A stretch of 64,000 nt of DNA from an uncultured Clostridia bacterium (GTDB lineage: Bacteria > Bacillota > Clostridia > Christensenellales > CAG-917). Below the pieces are notes generated by a model. The model was not told where the DNA came from. It did not search any database and saw only the letters and a program-made list of their open reading frames with translations. Shown in pieces: positions 44,301-60,724 of this stretch. A program made the translations under genes and the position numbers. Where the stretch lies: positions 62,001 to 126,000 of the forward strand of contig CALVQW010000003.1 of NCBI GenBank assembly GCA_944358385.1, read 5' to 3'. Every line of letters starts with the position of its first letter. Position 1 is the stretch's first letter.

Positions 44301-44437
44301 CAATCGAGCAATGTCCCTACCAAAATAGGGCTCGTATAATCACGCGCCATGTCGGGCGCGTAAATATGGGTGTATCCCATCCCTTGCAACAGTTCGATAA
44401 TAGCCTGTTCGTATGTATTCTCGGTAAAGTACATCAT
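41375..44437 (-). CDS. hsdR: Type I restriction enzyme, R subunit
   Basis: 1020 residues from ATG 44437 (AGAGGGG before it). The nuclease motif is D135 in RRPDIVLFVNG and E149-x-K151 in VVMELKSPS. The helicase/translocase core follows: Walker A WHTQGSGKS at 286-294, DEAHR, and the SF2 motif VARVNRVFQDKEGG. HsdR cuts unmodified DNA after ATP-driven translocation and acts with HsdM2-HsdS. It is last in the operon and is separated from hsdS by two extra genes, a TIR protein and a membrane protein. No frame break is seen, so the system appears intact. Confidence 0.93.
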   Translation of the reverse strand: MMYFTENTYEQAIIELLQGMGYTHIYAPDMARDYTSPILVGTLLDCLVQINKGLPIEAIKEAIAKLKDFESGSIVQKNAVFMGYLQDGVEVKYFNRGEERSTIVKLIDYAKVKNNTFEVVNQFTFIEDGNNRRPDIVLFVNGLPLVVMELKSPSKDEVGAENAYNQIRNYIHDIPSMFVYNAFCVISDLTTNKAGTITSGFDRFMEWKTKDGSYENTAYAQFDTFYEGLFEQARLLDIIKNFICFSESNHQLNKIMAGYHQYFAVRKAVDKAVVATATDGKGGVFWHTQGSGKSLSMVFYAHLLQEVLDSPTIVVMTDRIDLDDQLYMQFSKCSKFLRQVPVQAESKEHLKSLLEGRTANGIIFTTMFKFEKGEKALSERRNIVVIADEAHRGQYGFDEKVVFSENEEGEKEAHIVVGNARIIRDALPNATFIGFTGTPISIKDRNTREVFGDYIDIYDMTQAVEDGATRPVYYESRVIHLKLDQNALRLIDATYDLLEQQADSVTIEKSKKMLGQLESVLGADSTIDSLCRDIVEHYEKYRANVLTGKAMIVAYSRPIAMKIYRKILELRPTWTEKIGVVMTSGNNDPEDWKEIIGNKAHKEEMARKFKDNTDPLKIAIVVDMWLTGFDVPSLATMYVYKPMHGYSLMQAVARVNRVFQDKEGGLIVDYIGIASALKEAMKEYSSRDRARYGDMDIAKTAYPKFQEKLQVCKDLMHGFDFADFMSENALKMAKCITGGINFILDPKVADKKDLFLKEALLLKQAHSLCSSLTTPEERRAAAYFEAVRAGITKITMEGSGAKPLSLREINAKINELLKASIQSEGVINLFESQHLGEKFSLFDPSVLEEIAKMKEKNIAVEILRKLMAEQIAIYKRTNIVQATTFSEKINLLMNSYYNGLITNEEVIKELLKAAEEIAELRKQGEKLGLSEEEMAFYDALTKPENIKDFYENEVLVSMTRELTEMLRKNRTIDWQKKETARAGMRKMVKRLLKKYKYPPEKYDDAIETVMQQCELWTDNA

Positions 44438-44490
44438 TAACCCCTCTCTATCACATCTTACATCTGCAAAAGAATTTGTCAATATGCCTA

Positions 44491-45387
44491 TCACTCGGCG
44501 GAACCGCTCTCTTCATAGTAAGTACAGTACAACCACAACAAAGTTTCATAATACATATCCTCATATGTTTCAACTGCCGCATCTGTCATGTTGTCATACA
44601 TCACCCCTTCGGGGTGCTTGCGGCTGTAAATGTTAAGCACCACCTGCTCAACGAACTCCATTACCCAATAGCATACTATATTTTCATCTGCACCACCTAA
44701 ATTTTGCAAATCCCAAATATAGTCAGCAGGTGGATATGATATTGCTTCGTTTTGCGCACCATCCTTTTCTCCAAAAACCTGCCTGAAATAAGCGTCCAAA
44801 TATTTCTCGAAACTATCCTTGTTGTCAACAAATGTAGCACTCGTAAAGGTTGAATTAGTATATACACTCGTGGCGTGCAATTCGTCAAGTTTATACGGCA
44901 GTTGTCTGTATCTTTCAAACCCTCTGTGAAAATATTTTGCTCCGTCGTACAACATATCCCTGCCGAGTTTGTATTCCTTTATATCGTCGCGAAGTTTGGA
45001 AAAGCAAATGTCCACCCATTCGCGTCCTTTAACAATGGGCAAAGTGAAACCGGCTTGTTTCAAAATCTCCGTTTGAAGCTCGGGACTGCAACGGCAGAAA
45101 TTGGTATATATTGCTCTGCTGTGTGTCTCGTGCCTATGCAAATTTACCGCAATAATGCACCATGGCAGATAGTCGCGTTCGTTGCTGTTGTCTAATAGAA
45201 AAATATGCGCCCTTTCTTCCAGTTCCCTCTTCTGTCTGTTCTGCTCTATTTTGGCGATTTCCTTTTCGTGTCGCGTCTGCAACCAATATATCAAAAACGA
45301 TACTGCAACAGTTGCAGCCAAAGATAATATACCGATAACAATTTGGACAATATCTGCTGTTGTCATTTCCATAGACCAAATTTTCAC
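44491..45387 (-). CDS. Single-pass membrane protein paired with a TIR gene
   Basis: 298 residues with one N-terminal membrane helix (IVQIVIGILSLAATVAVSFLIYW, residues about 13-35) followed by a charged coiled coil (TRHEKEIAKIEQNRQKRELEE) and a helical cytosolic domain of unknown type. GTG 45387 overlaps the TIR stop; ATG 45372 is an alternative start. The tight coupling suggests that the two products act together, for example with this protein as sensor or membrane anchor for the TIR enzyme. No family was recognised. Confidence 0.68.
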   Translation of the reverse strand: MKIWSMEMTTADIVQIVIGILSLAATVAVSFLIYWLQTRHEKEIAKIEQNRQKRELEERAHIFLLDNSNERDYLPWCIIAVNLHRHETHSRAIYTNFCRCSPELQTEILKQAGFTLPIVKGREWVDICFSKLRDDIKEYKLGRDMLYDGAKYFHRGFERYRQLPYKLDELHATSVYTNSTFTSATFVDNKDSFEKYLDAYFRQVFGEKDGAQNEAISYPPADYIWDLQNLGGADENIVCYWVMEFVEQVVLNIYSRKHPEGVMYDNMTDAAVETYEDMYYETLLWLYCTYYEESGSAE

Positions 45388-46148
45388 CCTTCTGCTTTTA
45401 GCCTTTTTATAAATTGCCGAGCAAACATTATGGCAATTTCATCACAAGAAAGTTTTCTTGAATCAACGGTTTGAATGTCTGCAACCAACGGATATTTTTT
45501 ACGCAAATCATCGTTGGTAATGTTATGAATAATGGGAAGAACAAGTTTTTGTCCGTTTCTGTTCTGACGATTCAAAAACTCATTCAATTCCTTTTCCGTC
45601 CATTCTCTGCCAAAGAAATTTTGAGATATTACAATGATTGCAAATTCGGACTTTTTAGTCCCTTCCAAAATGCGCTCTTTCCATTTATCGCCCCATTCGA
45701 GAGACTTCCTGTCATAAAAAATGTTGACACCCAATTTTTCGAGCGATTTATACAAATCCTCTACAAAATCCTCCTTGTCTTTGTTTGCATGCGAGAGAAA
45801 AACATCATACTGAGGCAAATTTTTTGCTTGATAAGAAGGAACTGTTTTCTTCGAAATTCCGTTCATTTCATCTATAAAATTTTTATCTTTTGCTATGCTA
45901 CGAAGGCATGATACAAGTTGTGGAAAACTGCTCAGTCCTCTATCAAGCAACAAAAATTGTATCCTGCTTGACAAAGCATGTTTTGTAAGAAACTTTTGGT
46001 GAAATATTTCCACATCATTCATCCAGTCATCAAGTATGTGTCTATTCCCGAAAAGATTTACTGTGTCAAACGAATCAACTTGCTTTGGACTCTTGATTTC
46101 GTTTGCTCTCTCCAAAAGCGCGTTTAGTTGTTCTTCGAAACTACTCAT
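45384..46148 (-). CDS. TIR-domain protein within the restriction operon
   Basis: 254 residues. Residues 1-105 form a helical region of unknown fold. The TIR domain starts at 114 (YDVFLSHANKDK), continues with VNIFYDRKSLEWGDKWKERI and holds the likely catalytic Glu187 in REWTEKELNEFL, spaced as in NAD-cleaving TIR proteins. It lies between hsdS and hsdR with a downstream membrane-protein partner. TIR enzymes commonly deplete NAD+ or make signalling cyclic-ADP-ribose in phage defence. A trigger linked to the restriction complex is inference. Confidence 0.83.
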   Translation of the reverse strand: MSSFEEQLNALLERANEIKSPKQVDSFDTVNLFGNRHILDDWMNDVEIFHQKFLTKHALSSRIQFLLLDRGLSSFPQLVSCLRSIAKDKNFIDEMNGISKKTVPSYQAKNLPQYDVFLSHANKDKEDFVEDLYKSLEKLGVNIFYDRKSLEWGDKWKERILEGTKKSEFAIIVISQNFFGREWTEKELNEFLNRQNRNGQKLVLPIIHNITNDDLRKKYPLVADIQTVDSRKLSCDEIAIMFARQFIKRLKAEG

Positions 46149-46194
46149 GGCTAATCTCCTTTGCTATGTTACCCACTCTCCTAACTATACAATT

Positions 46195-47427
46195 CTAAAT
46201 CTCCACATTGTCAACATCGATTTCTCCCGACATAAGTTTCGGGAGAAGCGTATCTCTGACTTTGCACAACCAGATGTTTGCATCAATGTTAAGCGCAATA
46301 CTTCTATACATTGCCTCAACAGTTGCGCTAAATTCATTTAACATAGATATCTTTGATGGGAATAAGAACCGATAATCTGGCAATGCCCTTTTACTTAAAT
46401 GCAAAACTGTTGTTCCATTTACATATCCCAAACAATGTTCCTTGAATCTTTTGTCTTGAAGAATCGCCGCTATAATAAACTTAGACAACGATTTATTTTT
46501 TGGAACAACTTTAACTAAATCCATAGAAAATATTACATTTTCATATTCACACTTACTCATTAACAGTTCCGCATTTCCAATAACTTCTGCTTTTTGTGTT
46601 AAATCTGTATGCGCCACGAGAGTATCAAACAAATCTACATATTGACAGATTTTCAACTTAGATGAAGGTGCAATTTCCTTATACCCCTCCAATTTGAACC
46701 CTTTATTCCGGTCAAAATTTTTAATGGTTGCCATAGCGGTTGTTGATTGCCTAAGTTCAGAACTTGTGTACGAATAACCACCAACAAACTCCGCAATATC
46801 TGATAAGTTGATTAAAGACCAATCCGCTGGCACTACTCCCCCAAATGGCTCGAATTCTACAAACCAAGAATTGTAAAGCGCTTGCGCCTGCTCTTCCAAA
46901 TTCTTGTTGATTTGATTGTTTAATTCGATTTTATCGTCCAATGCGGACAATACTTTCGCTATCTTTTTTTGAGTTTCAAGGTCGGGTATCCTTAATACGA
47001 TTTTGCGAAATTCTGATTGCTTAATTCCTGTCACTGTTGTTCCAGTTTCTTTTGCTTTTAGAAGTGATTGACCATATGGCGATTGTAATAAGTACAACAA
47101 ATATCCATTATCCAATACATCTTTTTTTCCACGAATGGTAAGCAGTCTCTGCGCAACCGCTACACCATTTCTGTCCAAACGAGCAACCAATCCCATAGGT
47201 GCTTCCGTGGTTAATAACACATCTCCTTTTTGCGGGAAACCCCTAACCATAAATTTTTTGTATTCCGACTCGGATATAAAATAACATTCTGAATAATCAA
47301 TATGATTATTCTTTACCGATTTTGCACTAAGCGTAGGAATTCCATTAATGGATTTTTTCGGGGTCTTTCCTCTATAATCAATTATGGAATCCAAAACCGA
47401 TTCCATTGTGTATTCCCTAAATTTCAT
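46195..47427 (-). CDS. hsdS: Type I restriction enzyme, S subunit
   Basis: 410 residues from ATG 47427, overlapping the hsdM stop by 11 bases. Two target-recognition domains (about residues 1-160 and 200-380) are separated by the central coiled-coil helices (LETQKKIAKVLSALDDKIEL), and a second short coil closes the protein (RDTLLPKLMSGEI). HsdS sets which bipartite DNA site the enzyme methylates and cuts; the site cannot be predicted here. Confidence 0.92.
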   Translation of the reverse strand: MKFREYTMESVLDSIIDYRGKTPKKSINGIPTLSAKSVKNNHIDYSECYFISESEYKKFMVRGFPQKGDVLLTTEAPMGLVARLDRNGVAVAQRLLTIRGKKDVLDNGYLLYLLQSPYGQSLLKAKETGTTVTGIKQSEFRKIVLRIPDLETQKKIAKVLSALDDKIELNNQINKNLEEQAQALYNSWFVEFEPFGGVVPADWSLINLSDIAEFVGGYSYTSSELRQSTTAMATIKNFDRNKGFKLEGYKEIAPSSKLKICQYVDLFDTLVAHTDLTQKAEVIGNAELLMSKCEYENVIFSMDLVKVVPKNKSLSKFIIAAILQDKRFKEHCLGYVNGTTVLHLSKRALPDYRFLFPSKISMLNEFSATVEAMYRSIALNIDANIWLCKVRDTLLPKLMSGEIDVDNVEI

Positions 47428-48922
47428 ATCCGATTGCTCCCAAGTTTTTGCGGATGTCTTCTTCCAGTTCGTGCGATTTTGCAAACATTGCGGACAGTTC
47501 TCCCGTGAGCCGCGTCATCTTTGCGTCAAAGGGTTCGTCGTCGGCTTCCTGTTCCTCTATTCCTACATAACGCCCGGGGGTCAGAATGTAGTCCTGCTTT
47601 GCGATTTCGTCCGTGCCGACAACGGCGCAGAAACCTTTGACATCTTCCAGCGTGCCGTCGGCAAACGCTTTGTATGTGTCCGCTATTTTCTTGATGTCAT
47701 CATCGGTAAATTCGCGCAGTTTGCGCGTCACCATAGTACCCATTTTGCGCGCGTCGATGAAGAGCGTTTTGCCTTTCTGCGTTTTGTTTTTGGACAAAAA
47801 CCAGAGCGACACGGGGATTTGCGTTGTGTAGAACAGTTGCGGAGGCATCGCCACTATGCAGTCCACGAGGTCTGCGTTGACGATGTTTTTTCTGATTTCG
47901 CCTTCACCGCCCGACTGCGAGGACAGCGAGCCGTTGGCAAGCACCATACCTATTCTGCCGTTGGGCGCAAGGTGATAAATCATATGTTGCATCCACGCAA
48001 AGTTGGCGTTGCCCGCGGGAGGAATGCCGTATTTCCAGCGCACATCGTCCTGCAGTTTGTCCGCGCCCCAGTCCGAGAGGTTGAATGGCGGGTTTGCCAT
48101 AATGTAGTCCGCACGAAGCGTCGGGTGGCAATCGTTGAAGAATGTGTCGGCGTTGTACTGTCCGAGGTCCGCGTCAATGCCGCGGATTGCAAGGTTCATT
48201 TGCGCCATTTTCCAGGTGGTCGGGTTGGAGTCCTGTCCGTAAACGGAAATGTCGTTTATGTTGCCGCTGTGGCTTTCGACAAACTTTGCCGATTGCACGA
48301 ACATACCGCCGCTGCCACAGCAGGGGTCGTACACTCTGCCGTGGAAAGGTTGCAACACTTCAACCAGCGTACGCACGACGCAGGACGGCGTATAAAACTC
48401 CCCTGCCAGTTTGCCTTCCTGTTCGGCAAATTTGGAGAGGCAGTATTCGTAGGTTCGGCCGAGAATGTCTTTCTCGTCGCCGTGCTCGTGCATTTTTATG
48501 TTGGTGAACAAATCGACGACGTCTCCGAGCCTTCTCTTGTCCAGTTCGGGACGCGCAAAGTTTTTGGGCAAAATGTCTTTCAGGCGTTTGTTGTTCTTCT
48601 CGATGCTGCGCATCGCATTGTCAATCGCAACGCCGATTTCGGGCGTATGTGCCGCCGCCGCAATGTCTTTCCACCTTGCGCCCTGCGGCACGAAGAAAAT
48701 GCCTTCGGAAGTGTACTCGTCGATGTCTTCCTCAAAGCCTTCCCCTTCTGCCTTCAATTCCTCGTATTTCTGCTCGAAACGGTCGGAAATATATTTCAAG
48801 AATATCAGCCCAAGCACAACGCTTTTGTACTCCGAGGCGTCTATGTTGCCACGCAGCACACAAGCCGCCTCCCAAATCTCTTTTTCAAAACCGATATTCG
48901 CCGTCGTCTTTTCGTTCGCCAT
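47417..48922 (-). CDS. hsdM: Type I restriction enzyme, M subunit
   Basis: 501 residues. The N-terminal helical domain is followed by the N6-adenine methyltransferase core: motif I DPCCGSGGMFVQSA and motif IV NPPFNLSDW. The signature GEFYTPSCVVRTLVE in front of motif I is typical of HsdM. It modifies the recognised adenines and forms the complex with HsdS and HsdR. The start ATG 48922 is preceded by AAGGAG. It is the first of the five-gene operon; a small Xre gene lies just upstream. Confidence 0.94.
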   Translation of the reverse strand: MANEKTTANIGFEKEIWEAACVLRGNIDASEYKSVVLGLIFLKYISDRFEQKYEELKAEGEGFEEDIDEYTSEGIFFVPQGARWKDIAAAAHTPEIGVAIDNAMRSIEKNNKRLKDILPKNFARPELDKRRLGDVVDLFTNIKMHEHGDEKDILGRTYEYCLSKFAEQEGKLAGEFYTPSCVVRTLVEVLQPFHGRVYDPCCGSGGMFVQSAKFVESHSGNINDISVYGQDSNPTTWKMAQMNLAIRGIDADLGQYNADTFFNDCHPTLRADYIMANPPFNLSDWGADKLQDDVRWKYGIPPAGNANFAWMQHMIYHLAPNGRIGMVLANGSLSSQSGGEGEIRKNIVNADLVDCIVAMPPQLFYTTQIPVSLWFLSKNKTQKGKTLFIDARKMGTMVTRKLREFTDDDIKKIADTYKAFADGTLEDVKGFCAVVGTDEIAKQDYILTPGRYVGIEEQEADDEPFDAKMTRLTGELSAMFAKSHELEEDIRKNLGAIGYEI

Positions 48923-49037
48923 TCTCTTTCTCCTTAGTTTTAGGACTCTTTTGTTTCGTCACTCTATGATCACTCGTCGCAACAAGGTTTCCGCCGACTG
49001 CATGCAGCCGATTTCGTTCACCAAGCGGCAGACAAGT

Positions 49038-49247
49038 TCAATCCTCTGTTTTTGTCACATCCATAATATCGCCCACATTGCATTCCAACACATCACATAT
49101 GCGAAGCATTATGTCCATTGACACAACCTCGTTTTTGCTCATCTTTGCCAGTGTCGAAGTGGACATATCCGTTTTTATACGCAAATCCGTTTTGGTCATG
49201 CCTTTATCGATAAGCAACTTCCATAGTTTGTTGTAACTGACTGCCAT
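49038..49247 (-). CDS. Small Xre/YozG-like HTH regulator
   Basis: 69 residues from ATG 49247 with CAGG 8-9 bases upstream. The helix-turn-helix is MTKTDLRIKTDMSTSTLAKM followed by LRICDVLECNVGDIMD, typical of YozG-type one-domain regulators. It is co-directional with and upstream of hsdM (about 115 bases) and may control the restriction operon, as C proteins do. Confidence 0.85.
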   Translation of the reverse strand: MAVSYNKLWKLLIDKGMTKTDLRIKTDMSTSTLAKMSKNEVVSMDIMLRICDVLECNVGDIMDVTKTED

Positions 49248-49583
49248 ATCAAAACCTGCTGTAAAATAACTATTCACTTAATTATATCATATCTATAGAG
49301 AAAAACAAGCCCCAACATTCGCCATTTCAAACAAAAAATTCGACTTCACACAACTTAAACAATGCAAAAATTCTTCCTCTTTGGGAGTATTCAACAAATT
49401 TGACGATGGGACGTGTGCTTGTCTTTGTACAAGTGGCGTCGCTGCGCTCCGCCAGGACAAGCACACGCCCGCACGCCGACCACCGCCGGAAAGGGGCGGA
49501 CGGAAGCGGCGTTGCCCGCTGAACCGCTCGGGCAAGCGTCCGCTTTCACCGTCTCGCTCCCCTTTCCTGTTCGGTTTTGTCGG
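49248..49583. other. Gene-free GC-rich patch with an inverted repeat next to a Rep remnant
   Basis: No supported gene. CGTGTGCTTGTC (49412-49423) pairs with GACAAGCACACG (49456-49467) around an inner TGGCG/CGCCA stem. Base composition is GC-rich compared with the surrounding island. The position beside a replication-protein remnant suggests an old replication origin or terminator; this is inference. Confidence 0.45.
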
Positions 49584-50210
49584 TCAGTTGCAACGGCGCA
49601 TCTGCTCGATCACTTCCATGCTCGCCTGTCCCACATAACATCCTTCGTCCCAACACCCGAAATCATCGAAGAGCAACAGCTTTCTGTCGTCCACTCCGAC
49701 TCGACACACAACATCGTCTTCCATAATGTCGGATATGAAAAACTGCGACAATCCCTTGGAATACACTACCTTTTCGCCCGTCTTTTCTATGTATTTCAGA
49801 ATGTAGGCGAGCGCCTCGGCTTTACGGGATTGCTCGTCGATTGGTTCGAAATCCGACCTGCCGAAGCGTTTGTTGAAATAAGTGTTCTGCAAAGTCACCT
49901 GTCTTTGACGAGTGCCGAAACTGTAATCGTTCACCTCAACAAGTTCTCCAGGCATTGTGCCGTCGGGGATATGGAAGACCCCATGGAAATGCAATCGGTT
50001 TTTCTCTGGCGACCGCTCCCATACACCTATGTAACGCCATTTTTTGCGCGAGCCGAACAGACTCAGACAATTCGTGAGTTTTTTGCGGAAAGCGATCTCG
50101 TCGTGGAGTTTGTCGTCGTAGGTAAAGGTCTTAAATTGAGCCGAATTGCCGACACGTTGACCGATACCTTCCAAAGCAAGCGGACTTCCACGTTCGGGGT
50201 GTCTCGTCAT
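49584..50210 (-). pseudogene. Rolling-circle Rep-like protein, N-terminally truncated
   Basis: 208 residues. A HUH-type motif is visible (NRLHFHGVFHIPDG, with His-x-His), and KAEALAYILKYIEKTG holds the expected Tyr/Lys helix. The first recognisable motif, FKTFTYDDKLHDEI, lies only 26 residues from the start, and the preceding residues look unrelated to Rep. The frame begins 12 bases after the stop of the sugar dehydrogenase gene, so the N-terminal part was probably lost when that operon joined. It is likely the remnant of a plasmid or ssDNA element. Confidence 0.6.
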
Positions 50211-50221
50211 CGCTCAATTTT

Positions 50222-50998
50222 TCATTGCTTAACTTCCTGTCCGACACTCCTGTATATACTGTTTTTCAACATTACCGCATTCATCAAGGTAGCATCAACG
50301 CCACATTTTTCAGCCTGCGCTACCAGTGCCGCCACATCTTTGGGCAAACAGTTTCCTCCGTATCCGCGGTTATCTTCATAGACGAAAGTGTGACTGCTGC
50401 CGATACGCGGATCGGCTACCCACATTTCTCGCACAACATTGTAATTGGCTCCAAGGGCGCACGCGATGTCAAACATCTCGTTGCAAAATGTCACCTTTGC
50501 AGCTAAAAAAGCATTCTCCATATATTTGGCGAACTCGGCATCTTTCGCAGTTCCTTGATAAATACTGACATTGGAATTCACAACTGTTTTGTAGGTCTTT
50601 ATTGCCAAATCTATTCCCCGCTGCGAGCCACCGAATGTCAGCCAATTTCTCTTGGTCAAATCAGCGAAAGGATGCGCCACCGTCTCACCGAAGTATTCAG
50701 GCTGAAAAACTATTTCCTTGTCATATTTTTCCCTCATTTTGTCCGTAAAACCGACGGGCACGGTAGAACGAATGATTATCAGCGGAACATTTAACCAACT
50801 CAACACCTCTTCCACCGCACTCGTATCACATTCACCGTTACTTTTCGGAGGCGTCGGAACACAAATAAAGACGGTATCGCACAAATTCAGTTCCTCCTGT
50901 GCGCCCATATCCAAAAATTTATCGTAAACTTCGGCGTCCTTAAACAGTTCAAACATTGCTTTGCCAACGTGTCCGTAGCCCACTATTCCTATTTTCAT
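50222..50998 (-). CDS. Short UDP-glucose/GDP-mannose 6-dehydrogenase
   Basis: 258 residues from ATG 50998 (GGGAG upstream). The NAD motif GYGHVG (7-12) and the catalytic Cys217 in GYGGNCLPKD are intact, with FQPEYFGETVAHPF between. Family members are usually 390-450 residues; the C-terminal UDP-sugar-binding domain is absent. It should oxidise a nucleotide sugar to a uronic acid, or use another substrate. It is last in the operon, 17 bases after the double-HEPN gene. Confidence 0.8.
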   Translation of the reverse strand: MKIGIVGYGHVGKAMFELFKDAEVYDKFLDMGAQEELNLCDTVFICVPTPPKSNGECDTSAVEEVLSWLNVPLIIIRSTVPVGFTDKMREKYDKEIVFQPEYFGETVAHPFADLTKRNWLTFGGSQRGIDLAIKTYKTVVNSNVSIYQGTAKDAEFAKYMENAFLAAKVTFCNEMFDIACALGANYNVVREMWVADPRIGSSHTFVYEDNRGYGGNCLPKDVAALVAQAEKCGVDATLMNAVMLKNSIYRSVGQEVKQ

Positions 50999-51015
50999 CT
51001 TTCTATTCTCCCTCG

Positions 51016-52893
51016 TCATTTGACCTCAAATCTTTTATGTATAACTGCGCCTTGCTCGTCCTCGCCTTTCCAGACGATTTTCTGCCCTTCAAGTTGCGGT
51101 TTTATTTCCGTCCAATCTGTGTGCGGCGTTTCAAAAAACTTAATACCGTTCAATGCGTTGCCCCTGAATTTTAATTTTCCCCTGATTTCAATAAGCGTCA
51201 GTCTGGAAAATATAAATTCTTCCTGTTTATCCGAATATCGACTCAGCTTAAACCGAAAACTATCAGCCATTTTTCGACAAATCTCATTTTCGTCGGCAAT
51301 ACTCACCGAGGAATTTTGCACCGTTCTCAAACTTTTGTCAATTCTCGCAATCAGTGTGCTTATATCATCGCTTGCGGACCAAAATAATGCTGCGGACGCT
51401 TCCACAACTCGCTTATATTTCACGCCCACAATCCCATTAAACAATATAATTTGAAGCCCTTTTTTCACTACATCCGCAATTTCAGAATGACGCTCCATCA
51501 AAAATTCAATCAATTCTTCAATTACGGCAATCATGAATTCAAGAGAACAGTAATACTGTTTTCCGGACTGCGAAAAAGCAAAATTATTGATTATTCCGTA
51601 ATGGGCGCAGAAATTTCTCAATGCGACTGTCTTTTCAAACAGCTCTCCCGATACTCCGACGTTTTTCAACACCGTTGAAAAGCGCAGATAATTGCCGTCT
51701 TTCAATTTTAGAGAATGATAAACTTCCTCTTCCAGTCTTTGCACCATCTGCAACAATCCGCCGCTCACCGTGTCGTTGATAGTGCGCATATCGGCATTTT
51801 TGTTGCCGCTACACAGCATTAGCAAATCCTTATCCCGATAGAACTTAGGCTGGTTCAACTTGTCGAAATTTACAAAATTCACATCGGTTAATTCGTCTAT
51901 CTTGTGAATTTTGTTGTGCGCAAAATACGCTATTGCCATAAAAGACGGAACACGGCTGTTTAACTTAAGAAACAATTCCTCGTCTTCTATTTCCAAGCGA
52001 TATTCCGAGTCATAATAACGCCCCATATTGCTCCCCGCGCTTATGGTCAAAGTGCTCCCGCCGCAATGTTTCTCCAATTTCCCTGCAATCCCATATGCTG
52101 GCGCATCCGTTTGCTTGCGCAAATCCAGACTGAATTTTATGACACCCGAATCTTCTCCTTCCAGCGCAAGTTGAGAAAACAGCTTGCCCGCCACACTTTC
52201 CAACAAACCGTCCCCCTTATCGCCTGACGAAATCGGCAGATCATAATCGCACTTGAACACCGCCTGCAATTCTTCGGAAAGTTTCTCGCATTTCTTGTCC
52301 CAGCTGTCGGACTTATAATCAGAATTCAGCGCATCTTCCAAATATCTTCTCAAGGCCTTCAGAAGAGACTTGCAATTTTCCTTTCTCATGACTGAAAGCA
52401 TAATTATCAACATACCCGCAACGGTAATTACGCCATCTTTGGTATATTGCACTCCCCCGCCAAGAGCCGGAAAAACATCAAAAAATCCGACAGGCACACT
52501 AAATTTCTTTTTCAGATCTTCGAATAAAACGGCATGAATGTTTATGTTACGCAGTTGCGATAGCAGAAATAAATAAAACTCCAGCCCGCTATTTATCCGT
52601 CCACCGTAGGCTTCGCCATGTGAATATTCGACATTTGCAAAATGGTCATAAACAAACGGAAATTGTTTTGCGAACAATGCCCTGTCTGCAAATTGGTACA
52701 ACTTGCAGATATCTGCATAATAAACCGAGCGGAACATCCTTTCGAGAACAAGAAATTCACGAGCGCATGCTCCCTTAAGCTCCCTGCGCTCATTGGGTTT
52801 GATATATCCGTTTGTAATCCCGTATATTTCGTCCAAACCCGCATTCAGAAGATATGACGAACCCGCTTTATACCCCGCTCTCTTGTCTCCCAT
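51016..52893 (-). CDS. Unknown protein with two HEPN-like RN-x3-H motifs
   Basis: 625 residues from ATG 52893, chosen because GGAGG precedes it; the start lies 26 bases inside the upstream gene. No family was recognised. Two helical regions carry the RxxxxH pattern of HEPN ribonucleases, each with Asn second: RNINIH at 115-120 (in FYLFLLSQLRNINIHAVLF) and RNFCAH at 426-431 (in ELFEKTVALRNFCAHYG). Two such sites about 310 residues apart recall the layout of two-HEPN RNases such as Cas13 and its relatives, but size, spacing and a 195-residue C-terminal region differ. The last part is rich in strands and Lys (EIRGKLKFRGNALNGIKFFE). The third gene of an operon with sugar-modifying enzymes. RNase activity is inference. 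Confidence 0.6.
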   Translation of the reverse strand: MGDKRAGYKAGSSYLLNAGLDEIYGITNGYIKPNERRELKGACAREFLVLERMFRSVYYADICKLYQFADRALFAKQFPFVYDHFANVEYSHGEAYGGRINSGLEFYLFLLSQLRNINIHAVLFEDLKKKFSVPVGFFDVFPALGGGVQYTKDGVITVAGMLIIMLSVMRKENCKSLLKALRRYLEDALNSDYKSDSWDKKCEKLSEELQAVFKCDYDLPISSGDKGDGLLESVAGKLFSQLALEGEDSGVIKFSLDLRKQTDAPAYGIAGKLEKHCGGSTLTISAGSNMGRYYDSEYRLEIEDEELFLKLNSRVPSFMAIAYFAHNKIHKIDELTDVNFVNFDKLNQPKFYRDKDLLMLCSGNKNADMRTINDTVSGGLLQMVQRLEEEVYHSLKLKDGNYLRFSTVLKNVGVSGELFEKTVALRNFCAHYGIINNFAFSQSGKQYYCSLEFMIAVIEELIEFLMERHSEIADVVKKGLQIILFNGIVGVKYKRVVEASAALFWSASDDISTLIARIDKSLRTVQNSSVSIADENEICRKMADSFRFKLSRYSDKQEEFIFSRLTLIEIRGKLKFRGNALNGIKFFETPHTDWTEIKPQLEGQKIVWKGEDEQGAVIHKRFEVK

Positions 52894-55800
52894 AATATTT
52901 CCTCCTCGCGTTATCAAGCAAAACCGATTTTGTTGCGGCTTTGTTTTCATCGCTGTATCGCCCCGTTCGTTCCACATTATCGAAACTGGGCTCAAAATAA
53001 TACAGTGTGTCGCAAATAAACTCACACTTCCTAGCCTTGCTTATCATTGGCAGCATCACTGCGAAGTCTTCGTCTACCGTGACATACTCGCCGTCGATTT
53101 TCAAATCGGCATCTATGTCTATGGCATCAAAAAGCCATCTGCGGAAACACTTCGGGTGCACCCAAATATTGTCACCGTTGCGTTCCCATACGCGCTCAAA
53201 CGATTTTATGCTGTATTTTTTCAACGGTTTATCATACCGAACGCAATTACCGCAGGTCAAATCAGCCCCATGCTCAAACCTGCTTACAATTACACCTATC
53301 GCATCATCGTTAACAAGAAAATCGTCGTTGTCGACATTTATTACTATTGCGTTTTTATTCGTTATGACATTCTGCATTGCCACAACAAAATTCTCGAGAG
53401 CTCCGATGCTTGTATCGTTAAACAGCGCTATTGTTCTTTCTTTGAAGAAAGAATCGTTGCGCAACATAAACTTTGCATATTCTCTGCTTTCGTTTTCGGA
53501 CGCGTCGTCCACATAAACGATTGAGAACCTGTCGTAGCTCTGCCTTTTAAGACTGTCGAATAACCTTTTTAGCTTTGTAGCAGGTGTATTGCGACCCCTT
53601 ATGAAAATTACCACTTCTGCCTCGGTGTGAGGGAGCCACTCGTTTACATCATCCACAACATTTACTGCTTCATATTGCCTTTCGGGCAAAACACCGCGCC
53701 CTACCATATCCCGAACTCTCGCAATGAAGTTGCTGCGACTTTTGATTTTGTTTTCGGGATGCACAAACCAAAAATCGCCTCCTTGCATTCTGACGCTTTC
53801 TCCTCGTGGTAAAACGGAGTCGACTCCTCTGTGCCAAGCTAAAACAAACCTCCCTTTATCGACACGGTTAGGGAGAGGAAGAAAATCTTTCAATTTGTAA
53901 AGGTTCAGAAAACAGCAGCGCACCTCACACCTGCACCCCAAACGCTCGGGCTCGCGCCGCTTTTGAGCTATACTCGGAGCAACAGTAACCGCACCGTCGA
54001 CAGTCATTTTGTATGCTGACAAAAAATCCGCCTGACTTCCGACATGAAAAACTATATCGCTGTCTGTTTGAAAAACATACGGCGTTTTTACATTGTCAAA
54101 TGCGTACAGAGTGGCAAAAAGACCCTGCCCATTTTCCGAATGTCCGTCATCGCATTCCTTTGCAAAATATTTCTCATAAACACATTTAATTTGACCATCA
54201 TTTTCCGATGCGGAAATTATCCTGTCGATCAAACCGTTGTCCTTTGCTCTCTCCAATTCCCGCAACAAAATATGCTCGTCGTCCTCAGCGTATTTTCTCG
54301 CTCTCTCGTCTGTACTCGTCAGATCCACGACAACGATTTTCTCAAAAAACCTGATGCCATTCGACAATTCCGTGACTATATGGCGCACATTATCGTAAAT
54401 GCAGTCGTACTCCATCGGACAGGCCTTGATCAGCAGAGTCAAATTGTCAGCCACAAACGGCTCGGCAATCTTGGTACACTCAAATATGAGAAACTCCGAC
54501 GCCTCCGTAAGGTTATCCGTATCGACGCCGTCGCTCTCAAAAACATTATCAATCGTCAGGCCGTTTTCGCGCAAAAGCAGTTCATAAAATTCGATTGGAC
54601 GATGAAATTCTTCGCGTTCTGCGGACGACAAGACCAGGCGTTTGACAAACCTTTGAGACTGTCCGTACTTTCCCTCGATTCCTCCCTGTCTTAAAAGCGT
54701 GTTTTTTACGCCGTTGAAAAAAGGATTACAAATACTGATAACAGCTTTGCCGCCGTTCTTTAATGCCTTAACGATGTCAGAAACCACCATGCGGGCAGAT
54801 GCGTCATCAATGCAGCACAGAACAAGGTTGCAGATTACTGCGTCAAAAGAGCTTTTCGCTATTTCGTTTCGCGTTTTCAATATCTTAACGGTCTTGTTCG
54901 CCCTGTCATTAAGGATATCCAGATCAATATCGTACACGCTTACATCGCATTTATCGGAAAGTCTATTGGCGATTTTGCATTTGCCGGCGCCGTAATCCAG
55001 CACGGGCTCGGGTTGTGAGTTATGCAGTATATCAAGTATAATATCGTCATGCAACGATTCTTTCGAGTATGACCCCACCGCTTTCATAAGATTTTCGTAT
55101 CCGCTGTTCAACGCATCGGTCAATCCGTCGTAGTCCATGCAAACCAACTGCGTAAATTGCTGCTCATCGAGGAAATAATAGCGCAGCATCTGGTATGCTC
55201 TTTTTACACTTTTAGCAAATGCATCGGCAGAAAAAGAAAGTAGCGACCTACCGTAATCAATCAGCTTTATTCCATTTTCCGTTAAAATAAAATTTTCTTT
55301 TTTGAAATTTTCGAAAACTATGCCGTTTTCTTTGGCAAATCTCAGCAAATTTATTATTTCACGGCTGTGCCCGCCGTGATAAGTTTCACTTTGTTCAAAC
55401 TTGTATTTGAGCACGGTGTATCCGCACACATTTAAAACATCTACTGCATACATCTGTGGGCATTGTCCTAAAAGTTGCCCTTTTTCGCACAAAAATTCAA
55501 GGTTGTCGGGAGTATTGAAAAATATTTTATACACGTTGAGAGTATCCGTAAATACGATGCCTTCCGCTCCGCTCCCTATCATTTTCACATCTTCTCTCAA
55601 TCCCAATTGCGAAACTAACAAATCCTTGAATTTGTCCCGCATGCTTATACAAGCACGGCGATTCAACCTTTTTTCCATAACGGCGTGCGCCGCCATAGCG
55701 CAATATACATCGCCGTACACAAGCGCAATCCTGATAAAATCGTTAATTGCCGTGTCTGCGAACAAATTTGCATATTTACCGTCTCCCGTTATTGACAACA

Positions 55801-57715
55801 AACCTTGTATGCGGTAATAATTTGCAACGCATTTCACGAGCCTCTTAAGATAAAAACCGCGATAGCATGCGGCAAGCGTACGACTGCTTGCCTGCATACC
55901 GCACTGTCGGACGGCTTTGGTAAATGCTGCTCCTATGATATCCGCAATGAGTTTGTCCTGTTCGCGGACAATGTCAAACTCTTGTTTTTTTCTGTTGTGC
56001 AAAGTCGCAAATGGTGCGCTTGCAATCCTGTATCCCATTCTTTGCGCGGACAGCACCCAGAAATAATCGCCTCGCCTTCCCTTTCGGTCTCCCACTCGTA
56101 TAGAATCATTGGACACCTTCAACAAATCTTTGTTGAAAATCAGCGTATTTCCACCGCGCCCCCGCGGTGACACGACTTCTCCGTCACGCAAGTATAAAGG
56201 ACGACTGAGAGTATGCCCGGCAAAAATGTCTTTCAAGTCTCCCCTTCTGAACAATGCAAATGGCGTTTCGAGATGCAAAGAATTGCAGTCGGACAAATCG
56301 TAGTAATAATCTGTTTTGTCTTCAAGCGGCGCAGATTGTATGGGAAAATCGGAATTGTACACATAATCCAAAAGCGAAGTGCGCAATGTGGATAATAGCG
56401 GCAAGGGCGGGTCCAGACAATATTGACCTACAACGGCATCGTATTTTTCTTTGTATGTTGCTATAACCCTGTCTAAGTTTATCTCGCACTCGTGCAACAT
56501 ACCTCCGTCTGCGACCAATTCCCTCAACTCCATATCGTCGTCGAGAATCCATATCACATCACCCGATACGCTGTCATGATAAATGTATTGCTGCAGTATC
56601 GAGCGTGCTATTGCTATATCGCAGACTTTTCCGTCGGTTATTACAGTATTCGCGAGCTCTGTGTCGTCTCCCCAGGAGGAACAACATCTTGCGAACTCTT
56701 CAAAACAAAACATCTTGAAATCGCAACCTGTTGCTTCCAGCGCAACGCGATATTGCTCTTTGTCCCCGCCGAAATTCAAGAACACCACTATCTCTGTGTC
56801 TACGCGCCCAAGTTTGCCGATCTGTTCTATCAATCTCAATCCCAACTCGTATTCGGATGCGATAAAGCCTATTATAAGGTGTCCCGCAAACGTGTTATCG
56901 CTGAACTTTCTATTTAATGTCACATCGTCTACGGAAAACTTTGTGAGATGGTTTTCATCCACCCCGAAAACTTCGCTTGCCCGCTTAAAAAATTTGCCTT
57001 TGACCTCTTCAGACATAAATTTACGGTACTTGTAATAGAACTTGCGCAACCCGTCGGCCTTTACGGTCTTATCGTTGGTTATGCGCGGTCTGTCGTCGCG
57101 GGCATCGGCATATACCAAATGTTCGTTCAGAACACGATATGATGGGTTCAGCATCATCACGCGGACAAAGAAGTCCCTGTCGGTAGTCGAACTCATATTC
57201 TCATCGAACATTCCCGCCCGCAAAAGTACTGTCAATTTAACGAATGTGTTTGACCCCTGTATATGAGGATTGCCTGACAAAAAATCGGAGATTGAGACGC
57301 TTTGCGGTATGGAAAGGCTTTCCACGTTTTTGCCATTATCGTACAACAATCCGCTTATCAGAAAATCTTTTCCGTCAATCGAATCCTCCGCTTTTTTCAA
57401 ATACTCCCTGTCCCAAATATCGTCGTCATCCAATGTGGCAATGTATATGTCGTCGACACTTTTCCCAAGCAAAATTTCTTCTTGCAGAATGTTGTATATC
57501 GCGGTATTGAGTGAACCTGCGTAATTATGTGTGGCATTGTTTTCTAGAAAATCCACTTCGTTATCCGCACAAAGCCGACGTTCAAAAGTATTATCAACAG
57601 AATCGCATACGACGACTATCTTATCAGCCTTCCTTGTCTGCGATAGCACAGATATCAATGCTCTCTCGAACAGTGTCCGCCTGTTTTTAGTGGCGATGAC
57701 CGCATATATCCTCAT
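52868..57715 (-). CDS. 1615-residue polyprotein: glycosyltransferases, kinase-like and methyltransferase domains
   Basis: Six domains can be seen in order. A GT2-like domain (1-260) has DDDD at 96-99. A second GT-A-like domain (280-600) has LDDDME at 391-396. A kinase-like fold (710-850) has a glycine loop GSGAEG (714-719), Lys730, NFKKEN (803-808) and IDYG (819-822). A Rossmann methyltransferase (900-1080) has VLDYGAGK (905-912). A GT-A-like domain (1090-1350) has QTDSD (1216-1220). A GT2 domain (1365-1615) has YVDDAS and VDNDD (1461-1465). Start ATG overlaps the radical SAM stop as ATGA. Such chained enzymes usually build phosphorylated or methylated surface glycans. No signal peptide or membrane helix is seen. 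Coupling to a HEPN-like protein is unexpected. Confidence 0.78.
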   Translation of the reverse strand: MRIYAVIATKNRRTLFERALISVLSQTRKADKIVVVCDSVDNTFERRLCADNEVDFLENNATHNYAGSLNTAIYNILQEEILLGKSVDDIYIATLDDDDIWDREYLKKAEDSIDGKDFLISGLLYDNGKNVESLSIPQSVSISDFLSGNPHIQGSNTFVKLTVLLRAGMFDENMSSTTDRDFFVRVMMLNPSYRVLNEHLVYADARDDRPRITNDKTVKADGLRKFYYKYRKFMSEEVKGKFFKRASEVFGVDENHLTKFSVDDVTLNRKFSDNTFAGHLIIGFIASEYELGLRLIEQIGKLGRVDTEIVVFLNFGGDKEQYRVALEATGCDFKMFCFEEFARCCSSWGDDTELANTVITDGKVCDIAIARSILQQYIYHDSVSGDVIWILDDDMELRELVADGGMLHECEINLDRVIATYKEKYDAVVGQYCLDPPLPLLSTLRTSLLDYVYNSDFPIQSAPLEDKTDYYYDLSDCNSLHLETPFALFRRGDLKDIFAGHTLSRPLYLRDGEVVSPRGRGGNTLIFNKDLLKVSNDSIRVGDRKGRRGDYFWVLSAQRMGYRIASAPFATLHNRKKQEFDIVREQDKLIADIIGAAFTKAVRQCGMQASSRTLAACYRGFYLKRLVKCVANYYRIQGLLSITGDGKYANLFADTAINDFIRIALVYGDVYCAMAAHAVMEKRLNRRACISMRDKFKDLLVSQLGLREDVKMIGSGAEGIVFTDTLNVYKIFFNTPDNLEFLCEKGQLLGQCPQMYAVDVLNVCGYTVLKYKFEQSETYHGGHSREIINLLRFAKENGIVFENFKKENFILTENGIKLIDYGRSLLSFSADAFAKSVKRAYQMLRYYFLDEQQFTQLVCMDYDGLTDALNSGYENLMKAVGSYSKESLHDDIILDILHNSQPEPVLDYGAGKCKIANRLSDKCDVSVYDIDLDILNDRANKTVKILKTRNEIAKSSFDAVICNLVLCCIDDASARMVVSDIVKALKNGGKAVISICNPFFNGVKNTLLRQGGIEGKYGQSQRFVKRLVLSSAEREEFHRPIEFYELLLRENGLTIDNVFESDGVDTDNLTEASEFLIFECTKIAEPFVADNLTLLIKACPMEYDCIYDNVRHIVTELSNGIRFFEKIVVVDLTSTDERARKYAEDDEHILLRELERAKDNGLIDRIISASENDGQIKCVYEKYFAKECDDGHSENGQGLFATLYAFDNVKTPYVFQTDSDIVFHVGSQADFLSAYKMTVDGAVTVAPSIAQKRREPERLGCRCEVRCCFLNLYKLKDFLPLPNRVDKGRFVLAWHRGVDSVLPRGESVRMQGGDFWFVHPENKIKSRSNFIARVRDMVGRGVLPERQYEAVNVVDDVNEWLPHTEAEVVIFIRGRNTPATKLKRLFDSLKRQSYDRFSIVYVDDASENESREYAKFMLRNDSFFKERTIALFNDTSIGALENFVVAMQNVITNKNAIVINVDNDDFLVNDDAIGVIVSRFEHGADLTCGNCVRYDKPLKKYSIKSFERVWERNGDNIWVHPKCFRRWLFDAIDIDADLKIDGEYVTVDEDFAVMLPMISKARKCEFICDTLYYFEPSFDNVERTGRYSDENKAATKSVLLDNARRKYYGRQESGV

Positions 57716-58545
57716 ACGATTTGTTCCCCGGCTTTTATTATCCGTGCTCTTTCGGTGTCGCCGTCACACATCATGCATGCGGACGAATATTTGCCGCTGT
57801 AGAGCTTCTTCAATTCTTTTGCAAATTCACGACGAGGCAATCCGACATTTATTCCCTCATCGGCGCAAAGCCCGAGTTTTGCAATAATAGCGGTTCGCGA
57901 ACACAAATATATTTTTCCGTCGCAGAGCGAAACGCACCGTTTAATGCTGCACTCCTCATAACTGCTTTCTTTACGCGCAGCAATTTTCCCCATATCTCTC
58001 CATTCTTGCCCCGCTAAAAAAATGTATTTCACTCCGTTCGCCGTGAGCGCCTTGAGTAATTCCTCTCGCTTGTTTTGGGTGAATGAATAGTCACTGATTT
58101 GAACAACCGCTTTGCTGTTAGCCAAACATCCCAGAACCTCTTGAGAAGGAACAATGCTTCCGTTGGTCGCTATCCTCACCGATTTTATCTTTGGCTGAGA
58201 ATCTACAAATTCAACAATACTCTTTAACTCGGGATGAAGAAAAACTTCTCCGCCGTGAATTTTCAATCTGTAAATGCAATCGACTTTTTCCAATAGTAAT
58301 CTCAAGTCTTCAGTTACATCTTCAAAACGCTCGTCCTCTTTAACTGTCAAATAAGGAATTAAATTTGAACAATACTTGCAACGCAAATTGCAACGTGTGG
58401 TCACAAACATTTCAACATAGGGTATCTCTATTTTGTTTAAAATATATTGCCTTAAAAACAACTCCGCCTTATGACGAAGCAGGCTGTGTTGCGGAGCAAT
58501 TTTTTGTAAGTAGTGTAAACTCTCGCAATATATCTTCCGTCTCAT
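57712..58545 (-). CDS. Radical SAM protein with C-terminal Cys cluster
   Basis: 277 residues from ATG 58545 after AGGGG. The radical SAM cluster is C52-x3-C56-x2-C59 (TTRCNLRCKYCS), followed by KIHGGEVFLHPELKSI, the GGE-type motif. The C-terminal region holds further Cys residues (KRCVSLCDGKIYLC and ACMMCDGD) like a SPASM/twitch cluster. Similar proteins occur beside glycosyltransferases in surface polysaccharide loci. The substrate is unknown. First gene of the four-gene operon. Confidence 0.83.
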   Translation of the reverse strand: MRRKIYCESLHYLQKIAPQHSLLRHKAELFLRQYILNKIEIPYVEMFVTTRCNLRCKYCSNLIPYLTVKEDERFEDVTEDLRLLLEKVDCIYRLKIHGGEVFLHPELKSIVEFVDSQPKIKSVRIATNGSIVPSQEVLGCLANSKAVVQISDYSFTQNKREELLKALTANGVKYIFLAGQEWRDMGKIAARKESSYEECSIKRCVSLCDGKIYLCSRTAIIAKLGLCADEGINVGLPRREFAKELKKLYSGKYSSACMMCDGDTERARIIKAGEQIV

Positions 58546-58555
58546 AATACCCCTG

Positions 58556-58675
58556 AAAAGACAAAATCCCGACAATGGTCGGGATATCAAAATCATTCCG
58601 ATAAAACTACATAAGGATCTGCCTTATGTCGTCTCTTCGATGTCCAACATCCCTAAGCCGTTAATTTTATCTCGT
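58556..58675 (-). ncRNA. Short structured leader RNA with its own terminator
   Basis: Between the promoter and the radical SAM start three perfect hairpins follow one another on the minus strand: GATGT-TGG-ACATC (58639-58651), ACATAAGG-CAGAT-CCTTATGT (58609-58629) and ATCCCGAC-CATT-GTCGGGAT (58566-58585). The last is followed by TTTTGTCTTTT, the form of a rho-independent terminator, placed only 20 bases before the start codon. Either this is an attenuator or most transcripts end here as a free RNA of about 110-120 bases. The RNA ends are estimated. Confidence 0.6.
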
Positions 58676-58681
58676 GTTTGA

Positions 58682-58710
58682 ATAATAACACATAAAACAA
58701 TAAATGTCAA
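58682..58710 (-). promoter_or_regulatory. Promoter of the leader RNA and four-gene operon
   Basis: On the minus strand consensus TTGACA (58705-58710) and TATTAT (58682-58687) are separated by 17 bases. Confidence 0.85.
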
Positions 58711-58943
58711 TGCGAAGGAATAAGCCCCTAATGATGCCATTCCCTGCGTCAAAAAATGCTGACAGCCAAATGTAGCCAATGGGTGAAAAATAGGGGGTTT
58801 TAGGGCGGTTTGGGCAGGTCGGGAAAGGGAGACTGATTTTTCAAAAATTCAATCGAATTTTGACAATATATCTGACAGCCAATGGGCGTTTTTCTGACAG
58901 CCAATCGAACTTTGTCGATTGGTTTTTGAAGTTTTGAAAAATG
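58711..58943. other. Right end of the element with TGACAGCCAA repeats
   Basis: No gene. CTGACAGCCAAATGTAGCCA starts at 58759, and CTGACAGCCAAT occurs at 58872-58883 and 58894-58905. The first is nearly the same as 29406-29427 at the left end. Equal sites at both ends fit recombinase arm sites. Confidence 0.6.
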
Positions 58944-59129: not shown

Positions 59130-59406
59130 GCAAGGCGTCGAAACGCTGGTTTTTGGTATTATGCAAGATAAGCCGCTTTACGCTTTTGAGCTATATGGCA
59201 CCGAAAACTCTTTTATTACAACGCCGTCTGACAAAACCGCTATCCCGATACATTGTGACGATATTCCTGAGCTGAAAAAATTCCACGGAAGGAATTTTGC
59301 CGGAGCATATTACACGATAGGCGAAGCGAGTTCGCGCACATCTTATCGTATAATATATAAAATAATTGATAACGCCGTCGCCAACGACGATGACGAGGAT
59401 TTTTGA
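59130..59406 (+). pseudogene. TIR-domain protein, 3' part
   Basis: The frame reading LPRY within the repeat continues as KQGVETLVFGIMQDKPLYAF and ends DDDEDF before TGA 59404-59406. Strand-rich sequence (GRNFAGAYYTIGEASSRTSY) continues the beta-sandwich of the 5' part. An ATG at 59161 could start an 81-residue fragment, but without the TIR domain it would not be functional in the same way. Confidence 0.8.
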
Positions 59407-59408
59407 TC

Positions 59409-60185
59409 ATGGAGCATGATTTTGATAAAACACCCAGTTATTTTAACACCGAGGAAGCCTTCGAGAAATATCTCGGCATGACTAGCTATTACCTCGGTCT
59501 GCAAAAGTGCGCAGAAAAATTGATCCGCCTTGCCTCTCCGAAATCCGTAGCGGAACTCGGTTCTGCGACAGGCGCAACTTGCATACGCCTAGCAAAACGA
59601 TTTAGTGATGTTCGATTTGTCGGAATAGATATGCGCGCGGATGTTGTAGCCATCGCCACTTCTCTAAAAGAAAATTTATCGAACCTTTCTTTTGTTGTCG
59701 GAGACATGACGCAATTTGTTAAACAACCAATTGAAGAAGATTTCTTGTTAATGTTGTACTCATATCATCATATTATCGATCCGCTCGCCAACAAAGTGGA
59801 TTTTTTGGCGGATGCATATCATAACATGAAAAAAGGCGCGTATCTATGCATTGCCGAAACCTTTATTCCGGACAGCGCAAGCGGACTCTCGGACAAAGAC
59901 GCAATATTGCGCCTTTGGTCCACACGGAAAGACGAAGGATTCGCTTCTACTTTCTGGAATGCCCTCAATGCTCTCGACACAGATTCCATAATCAAAACGC
60001 AGGCAATAGCTGAATATTGCGGCGAAAATGAATATCTTGCCGGAAAGTTGGTAGCAGAAAGAAACGATGAGTTTTTGATCCAACCTGCCTGGCTGATAGA
60101 AAAAGGCAAACTCGCCGGCTTTAATGTCATCCTCAACCAAGCGATCAACTCTATTGAAGACAGGATAATCCTTTTTAGAAAATGA
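59409..60185 (+). CDS. SAM-dependent methyltransferase
   Basis: 258 residues. Motif I VAELGSATGATCIRLA (48-63), the acidic loop VGIDMRAD (71-78) and the post-motif VVGDMTQF show a class I Rossmann methyltransferase. Substrate determinants (LMLYSYHHIIDP, then SFW-like FASTFWNALNALD) are not diagnostic. ATG 59409 lies 3 bases after the TIR stop and its end overlaps the next start by ATGA, so TIR, methyltransferase and DHQS-II-like genes formed one operon before the insertion. Its present promoter is uncertain, as the insertion cut it from the original one. Confidence 0.85.
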   Translation: MEHDFDKTPSYFNTEEAFEKYLGMTSYYLGLQKCAEKLIRLASPKSVAELGSATGATCIRLAKRFSDVRFVGIDMRADVVAIATSLKENLSNLSFVVGDMTQFVKQPIEEDFLLMLYSYHHIIDPLANKVDFLADAYHNMKKGAYLCIAETFIPDSASGLSDKDAILRLWSTRKDEGFASTFWNALNALDTDSIIKTQAIAEYCGENEYLAGKLVAERNDEFLIQPAWLIEKGKLAGFNVILNQAINSIEDRIILFRK

Positions 60186-60724
60186 ATAGCACCAAAACTA
60201 TTACCGCAACGATAACATCCATCCGCAAATTTTATTCCGGTAAACGACTTCTCCTAGATTTTATGGAAGAGTTTGACGCGACCGATTCGATTTTTGTCGG
60301 AAACACAATGAACGGCTTGTTTTTGATCCCGTCGGAAAACAGGCAGTCCATCAATTATTTGCCGAGAAAATTCCGTTTCAATGCGGGGGCAATCCATCAA
60401 TACGTTGCATCTCCGTCGGGAGTAAAATATTTGGACGAGTTGATTCCGGGCGATGAAATTATCATCTCAACACAAGCGCAACTCAAAACCGCACCCGTCG
60501 CCAGAACAAAATGTGAGATCCGCGATTTCGTAAAAATAGAAGCCATCGCCGATAATAACACGTTTTCTGTCATTTTACAAGACGGGGATACTACGGCATT
60601 GCTTACACCGCAAGGCCTTAAATATCTTGCCGAATTAAACCCGGGTACACCCGTTCTCGTCCGGCTTTACGATCATGCGACTCATTTGGGAAACCCTATT
60701 GACGAATTTTGCGAAGAAAAATAA
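60182..60724 (+). CDS. Half-length 3-dehydroquinate synthase II-like protein
   Basis: 180 residues. Its sequence follows the C-terminal half of the DHQS-II family: FVGNTMNGLFLIPSEN, RFNAGAIHQYVASPSG, DELIPGDEIII, IEAIADNNTFSVILQDGDT, LLTPQGLKYLAELNPG and a closing HATHLGNPIDEF. Full enzymes (about 330-380 residues) carry a catalytic Lys in an N-terminal half absent here, so a different role is likely. The methyltransferase just upstream may be its partner. Such a pair in an operon with a TIR protein is not known to me. Confidence 0.72.
   Translation: MNSTKTITATITSIRKFYSGKRLLLDFMEEFDATDSIFVGNTMNGLFLIPSENRQSINYLPRKFRFNAGAIHQYVASPSGVKYLDELIPGDEIIISTQAQLKTAPVARTKCEIRDFVKIEAIADNNTFSVILQDGDTTALLTPQGLKYLAELNPGTPVLVRLYDHATHLGNPIDEFCEEK

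Follow-up and report, generated by a model that had tools for sequence, protein, structure and literature searches.

The HEPN domains of Cas13 lie close to those of AbiD/F, and Cas13 pairs its two HEPN domains intramolecularly, as set out in the Cas13an paper (PMC12165695). AbiF and AbiD, the proposed ancestors of Cas13, are defence-associated HEPN RNases whose genes can follow a promoter, an RNA and a terminator (PMC12373285, PMC12165695). This layout is described for AbiF of C. difficile, where the RNA, RCd22, binds the toxin (PMC12373285). Here we describe an operon that encodes a twin-HEPN protein among glycan-type enzymes, downstream of a structured leader RNA. It lies in a 64,000-nucleotide stretch of an uncultured Clostridia bacterium of the order Christensenellales (contig CALVQW010000003.1, positions 62,001 to 126,000), which is called the window below. 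We propose, with a probability of about one half, a mobile operon under attenuator control, in which a glycan or nucleotide-sugar pathway is coupled to a twin-HEPN RNase of Cas13 fold. The RNase would act as a conditional growth-arrest (defence) effector. In the literature library that was searched, no paper brings together HEPN, radical SAM, glycosyltransferase and anti-phage.

The four genes span 50222-58545 on the minus strand, downstream of a sigma-70 promoter and the leader. The features, in order of transcription, are as follows.

58682-58710, minus: sigma-70-type promoter TTGACA-17 nucleotides (nt)-TATTAT, 11/12 consensus
58599-58672, minus: leader RNA core, a three-way junction with P1 (GATAAAA/TTTTATC) around P2 and P3
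about 58561-58585, minus: intrinsic terminator hairpin ATCCCGAC-CATT-GTCGGGAT, then a T-run; closes the leader ahead of the radical SAM gene
57712-58545, minus: radical SAM (rSAM) gene, 277 amino acids (aa), first gene of the operon
52868-57715, minus: polyprotein gene (POLY), 1615 aa
51016-52893, minus: twin-HEPN gene, 625 aa, predicted Cas13 fold
50222-50998, minus: short nucleotide-sugar (UDP-glucose type) dehydrogenase gene, 258 aa, start MKIG at 50998

The rSAM and POLY genes meet in an ATGA overlap (57712-57715), POLY and HEPN overlap by 26 bases (52868-52893), and 17 bases (50999-51015) separate HEPN from the dehydrogenase, whose homologues likewise start at MKIG. An earlier note on this DNA had described these genes, their junctions and the consensus promoter, and all were found at these positions. 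Its structured leader with a terminator also stands; its three separate hairpins are better drawn as a three-way junction plus terminator.

The 625-aa protein is a twin-HEPN protein whose predicted fold is Cas13-like. It has two R-x4-H HEPN domains in one chain, as Cas13 (Cas13b/Cas13bt) does, and their motifs, R115-N-x-N-x-H120 and R426-N-F-x-x-H431, are invariant in 10 homologues, down to 22% identity. The AlphaFold (AF2) model built from the homologue alignment has a predicted local distance difference test score (pLDDT) of 83 and a predicted template modelling score (pTM) of 0.81. When this model was aligned to the PDB with VIA-align, the top 12 entries were all Cas13 (Z 15.6 to 5.2), and the next, an unrelated fold, scored 5.0. 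The Z scores were 15.6 for PspCas13b (277 residues), 14.2 for PbuCas13b, 13.7 for Cas13bt3, 10.8 for EsCas13d and 7.1 for LbuCas13a. The alignments to Cas13b and Cas13bt (Z 13.7-15.6) run over 260-277 residues across both domains. The invariant motifs and this structure ranking bear out the double-HEPN-like call of the earlier note. Its suggestion of structure and profile searches yielded Cas13 by VIA-align and no significant match by Foldseek or by sequence profile.

The likeness is one of predicted structure. A profile of the 10 homologues matched no PDB chain, hence no Cas13; no PADLOC Cas13 model matched the protein, and no Pfam (including Abi_2) or NCBIfam family was assigned. PADLOC gave a weak AbiD match (E 0.016 over 31 residues) around the second HEPN motif. 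Unlike Cas13, the protein is only 625 aa long, has an extra C-terminal beta domain, is encoded in a glycan operon and has no sequence-level match or array nearby. Unlike AbiF, which homodimerises with one HEPN domain per chain, it carries two per chain. The homologues were not found only in glycan loci with a known non-RNase fold, the outcome that the earlier note had named as contrary to its view. As modelled, the family has a place in the Cas13/AbiD/F picture: twin-HEPN proteins without CRISPR, akin to Cas13 either by descent or only in fold.

Two other identities were considered and rejected. One is CRISPR-Cas13 itself: no CRISPR array or array-like repeat family was found in the window region or in the related loci L016, L018, L021 and L022. 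The other is a phage origin. Neither HEPN nor POLY matched in phages, HEPN had no match in plasmids or IMG/VR, and Foldseek of HEPN against viral models gave nothing significant. IMG/VR matches to POLY are partial (N-terminal glycosyltransferase (GT) region, 26-31%), and phage dehydrogenases are about 32% identical to that of the operon.

Chance does not explain the gene set, which is found again in four further genomes of the order. The search for HEPN covered 297 genomes of the order, and those for POLY and the leader covered 396. The HEPN query gave six matches in six genera, the window and five relatives that are full-length or nearly so (32-36% identity). HEPN is absent from all of the 42 other genomes of the same family, and a class-wide search found the own genome, a 51-residue fragment and nothing else. 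Distant homologues (22-26%) are present in one Gallicola and one Acholeplasmatales genome. The POLY query gave seven matches. Complete cassettes are found in the window and at L009 (=L017), L010 (=L020), L011 (=L018) and L019 (=L032), the last being Candidatus Ornithoclostridium faecavium from a species-wide collection. The earlier note had asked whether the four genes stay together elsewhere, and the neighbourhood survey that it suggested found genes and leader travelling together across these cassettes.

The cassette order is rSAM-POLY-HEPN-(SLOG)-dehydrogenase, with SLOG optional, and in all five complete cassettes HEPN keeps the same slot, overlapping POLY and ahead of SLOG or the dehydrogenase. 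The four other cassettes have a SLOG-cluster-4 gene, which is missing from the window, and three of these four have an APH-like kinase gene downstream; no remnant of either was found in the window. Compared with the other cassettes, the window genes are 47-51% identical for rSAM, 31-34% for HEPN and 66-72% for the dehydrogenase (L033 included). Full-length POLY orthologues are 44-50% identical to that of the window, 48-50% within cassettes. At 32-34%, against 67-72% for the dehydrogenase and 48-50% for POLY in the cassettes, HEPN is the least conserved gene, as expected of a conflict protein. At L033 (genome G264) POLY and the dehydrogenase occur without rSAM, SLOG and HEPN, and at L034 a POLY fragment adjoins a GmrSD-type gene; profile searches of both genomes found neither HEPN nor rSAM. 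As a side observation, the HEPN gene of L032 (11999-13732, genome G719) has internal stops in the C-terminal beta domain, with both HEPN motifs intact.

The leader is a conserved, covarying RNA between promoter and operon. The 146-nt leader of the window folds with a z of -4.4 against dinucleotide shuffles. The alignment has a P1 of GATAAA(A)/(T)TTTATC, a P2 of GGCUU..GAUG/CAUC..AAGUC and a P3 of CAUAA/UUAUG. A covariance model (R1) built from six loci found these six and one independent match, in genome G691 (E 1.2e-7), where the next gene is an rSAM gene cut by the contig end. The RNA is therefore present in 7/396 genomes of the order. Standard pairs fill 93% of the pair cells across the seven loci, as against 33-48% in slid controls, and six pairs are changed on both sides, although covariation is modest at n=7 and related sequences inflate the shuffle test. 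In every locus the RNA core lies between a 17-nt-spaced sigma-70 promoter (10-12/12) immediately upstream and a terminator immediately downstream.

In six of the seven loci the 3' strand of P1, together with the bases that follow it, is able to pair with the terminator of its own locus, at the 5' arm and loop, with computed energies of -8.1 to -13.5 kcal/mol that are equalled by at most 1.5% of shuffles. The leader therefore looks like a transcription attenuator, a probable on-off switch for the whole operon. The arrangement of promoter, P1-closed junction, P1 strand predicted to compete with a terminator arm, and operon resembles Bacillota attenuation riboswitches and protein-responsive attenuators. 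Unlike known attenuators of this kind, the leader matches no Rfam family and was found in the seven genomes only. RF03085 was missing from the match lists, whose E-value limits were 5 and 1, and the matches to HPnc0260, Qrr and rnk were rejected as far below their gathering scores.

The enzymes of the operon suggest a sugar-containing product. The first gene product has a Pfam Radical_SAM match (2.7e-10), a Cx3Cx2C motif and extra C-terminal cysteines. Its identification as viperin was rejected, as the PADLOC pVip match covers the generic rSAM core only and MoaA and many others score alike. POLY has the domain order GT2, GT-A-like, kinase-like, methyltransferase, GT-like and GT2. Pfam and profile searches give GT2 at both ends (1e-18), Methyltransf_11 and a weak kinase. 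The model of the second domain is GT-A-like, with Z up to 11.5 to a mannosyltransferase, although its mean pLDDT is only 58; most of the first 175 residues are modelled well. Four DxD-type motifs (LDDDD, LD[DE]D, TDSD and DNDD) are kept in the alignment. A check of the kinase and methyltransferase domains for a link to WbdD gave generic fold matches only (TTK kinase, a methyltransferase). At the expected catalytic-loop Asp of the kinase-like domain there is an Asn, Asn803 (residues 801-809, window about 55289-55315, minus strand), which is invariant in cassettes and plasmid relatives. From its sequence the domain may be a pseudokinase or may carry out unusual chemistry. The dehydrogenase (Pfam UDPG_MGDP_dh, 2.9e-24) has the NAD-binding and central domains only. 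No convincing transmembrane segment was found in POLY or the other cassette proteins scanned.

WbdD-type proteins are kinase/methyltransferase glycan chain terminators. Like these and GT2 polyproteins, POLY combines GT2, kinase-like and methyltransferase domains and has a nucleotide-sugar dehydrogenase nearby. Unlike them it is a single chain of 1615 aa with an rSAM partner, no exporter and an Asn at the usual kinase Asp. Looser GT2-kinase-GT2 relatives are present on Salinivibrio and Pseudoalteromonas plasmids (L047 and L048, gammaproteobacterial), where they adjoin an rSAM gene, or genes for RibA, an AsnB-like protein and an N-acetyltransferase. These neighbours hint at small-molecule chemistry as much as at a surface glycan.

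The operon lies in a genomic island. The stretch 41163-58749 differs from the sister species G030, and the sequence on either side, as far as 41163 on the left and from 58749 across tRNA-Thr on the right, is 93-95% identical. At this tRNA-Thr hotspot G030 carries a different insert of 19.5 kb with an integrase-like gene. The right edge of the window island is about 40 bases upstream of the operon promoter. The island also contains type I restriction-modification (R-M) genes (41375-48922) and a TIR/ThsB-like gene (45384-46148). AbiE adjoins the cassette at L011, serine recombinases are near that of L009, and an AbiL-like pair is near the lone HEPN of L016.

We propose the following mechanism. 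Transcription from the sigma-70 promoter would produce the three-way-junction leader. With P1 formed, the terminator would form too and the operon would be off; with P1 open, the 3' strand of P1 would pair with the 5' arm of the terminator, and polymerase would read through. A pathway metabolite is the natural guess for the signal at the junction. The rSAM protein, POLY (with its four glycosyltransferase-type domains, kinase-like domain and methyltransferase) and the dehydrogenase would act in the cytosol to make or alter a product that contains sugar. As in Cas13, the two HEPN domains may come together in cis to form a single metal-independent RNase site. Until infection or loss of the pathway product releases the enzyme to cut RNA, it would be kept inactive. 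A bolder version would have the Cas13-fold RNase gated by the sugar-nucleotide product of its own operon, read by SLOG where present, together with a new riboswitch class, such that chemistry takes the place of a guide RNA. The earlier note likewise suggested a modified sugar nucleotide as a possible controller of HEPN. We consider the bolder version unlikely.

Several points weigh against the main proposal. Cutting of RNA by the HEPN protein and protection of the host from phage by the operon are predictions. Helical models often reach good Z scores, and Cas13bt3, ranked first by Foldseek, has an E of 0.31, which is not significant. In the window the antiterminator pairing is weak (-5.6 kcal/mol, with 11% of shuffles as good), although there the minimum-energy fold has the terminator arm sequestered by GGGAU of P2 instead. 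Noncognate combinations of leader and terminator at times pair as well as cognate ones. The pathway can do without HEPN, as L033 has the leader, POLY and the dehydrogenase but no HEPN, and HEPN can do without the pathway, as lone HEPNs exist. The defence-island setting expected by the earlier note is seen in the window and several relatives, but some copies lie away from known defence genes.

The main rival is possible, though we rate it clearly below the coupled operon. It holds that this is an ordinary mobile operon for a surface glycan or secreted glycoconjugate under a feedback riboswitch-like attenuator, and that HEPN is an unlinked defence hitch-hiker or addiction module. L033 agrees with it, as do the HEPN genes that stand without POLY, alone or beside unrelated small proteins (L007/L022, L008/L021 and L016). 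The window HEPN also fails to group with those of the other cassettes: it is unplaced in the tree (end branch 1.38) and unusually diverged, as if swapped. Against this rival stand the clade (85/92) formed by the other four cassette HEPNs and the constant POLY-overlapping slot in all five complete cassettes. The lack of a convincing transmembrane segment in POLY and of an export gene in the operon also counts against it.

A further explanation follows the logic of AbiF or of type III toxin-antitoxin systems. The leader would be an antitoxin or guide that binds HEPN and is over-produced by termination ahead of the operon, as RCd22 is for AbiF. The promoter-RNA-terminator-gene layout recalls C. 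difficile AbiF (PMC12373285), the HEPN protein has a Cas13-like fold, and the leader is highly structured and conserved. Its distribution points elsewhere. At each of the seven loci the leader stands ahead of the rSAM/POLY operon. L033 is among them, with compensatory changes in P1 and P3, and HEPN is absent from the assembled G264 genome. Conversely, R1 found no match even at E 1 in G160 and G302, the genomes with HEPN and no POLY. Since the leader is kept without HEPN and missing where HEPN occurs alone, its most likely role is to regulate the operon, and service as a HEPN antitoxin or guide would at most be an additional one. The predicted competition between P1 and terminator also points to control in cis. 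The layout departs from that of type III systems, since a single junction RNA without repeats is followed by rSAM rather than a toxin gene and is present without HEPN. The leader also differs from the AbiF RNA in not being RF03085 and in not tracking HEPN, and the protein lacks an Abi_2 match. We consider this explanation unlikely, and the same distribution and the attenuator architecture count against the earlier view that the RNA controls HEPN. It is highly improbable that the 625-aa protein serves only as a helical scaffold for the glycan enzymes, catalytically dead or not an RNase at all: its lack of a Pfam or NCBIfam family and its non-significant Foldseek E-values would suit a scaffold, but 10 proteins share both R-N-x3-H motifs without change, even at 22% identity, and the fold matches only Cas13, in four subtypes.

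If the coupled operon is real, it would provide a CRISPR-free family of full twin-HEPN proteins with a Cas13 fold. Such a family would bear on the origin of Cas13 from AbiF-like RNases and on the role of these RNases before guides. The leader would be a new, unclassified RNA whose ligand would name the pathway. The conserved tie of an RNase effector to glycan chemistry would be testable with few genes.

Some further features were observed at the HEPN loci and around the island. HEPN genes without POLY (L022 8000-11893, L021 9998-12951 and L024 9995-17440) are accompanied by a membrane-protein gene and an uncharacterised protein of 269 aa. An NrdG-NrdD operon is also near HEPN in L022 and L024, and in L022 the repeat GACAAAAGTTGTCCTGT stands ahead of the HEPN gene as well as the nrd operon and may be a common operator for a nearby helix-turn-helix (HTH) gene. 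In the window island an uncharacterised 298-aa gene (44491-45387) and the TIR/ThsB-like gene sit between the R-M specificity and restriction subunits. Just downstream of the operon, at 49584-50210, is a rolling-circle type replication protein (REP_ORF2/G2P, 4e-8), possibly a remnant of a small element. On the other side, beside the tRNA, 59161-60724 contains a small open reading frame, a methyltransferase and a 180-aa protein that matches the C-terminal half only of 3-dehydroquinate synthase II (1.6e-37). Between tRNA-Thr and the operon, near the right edge of the island, repeated TTGGCTGTCA units at 58760-58914 are candidate recombination or binding sites.

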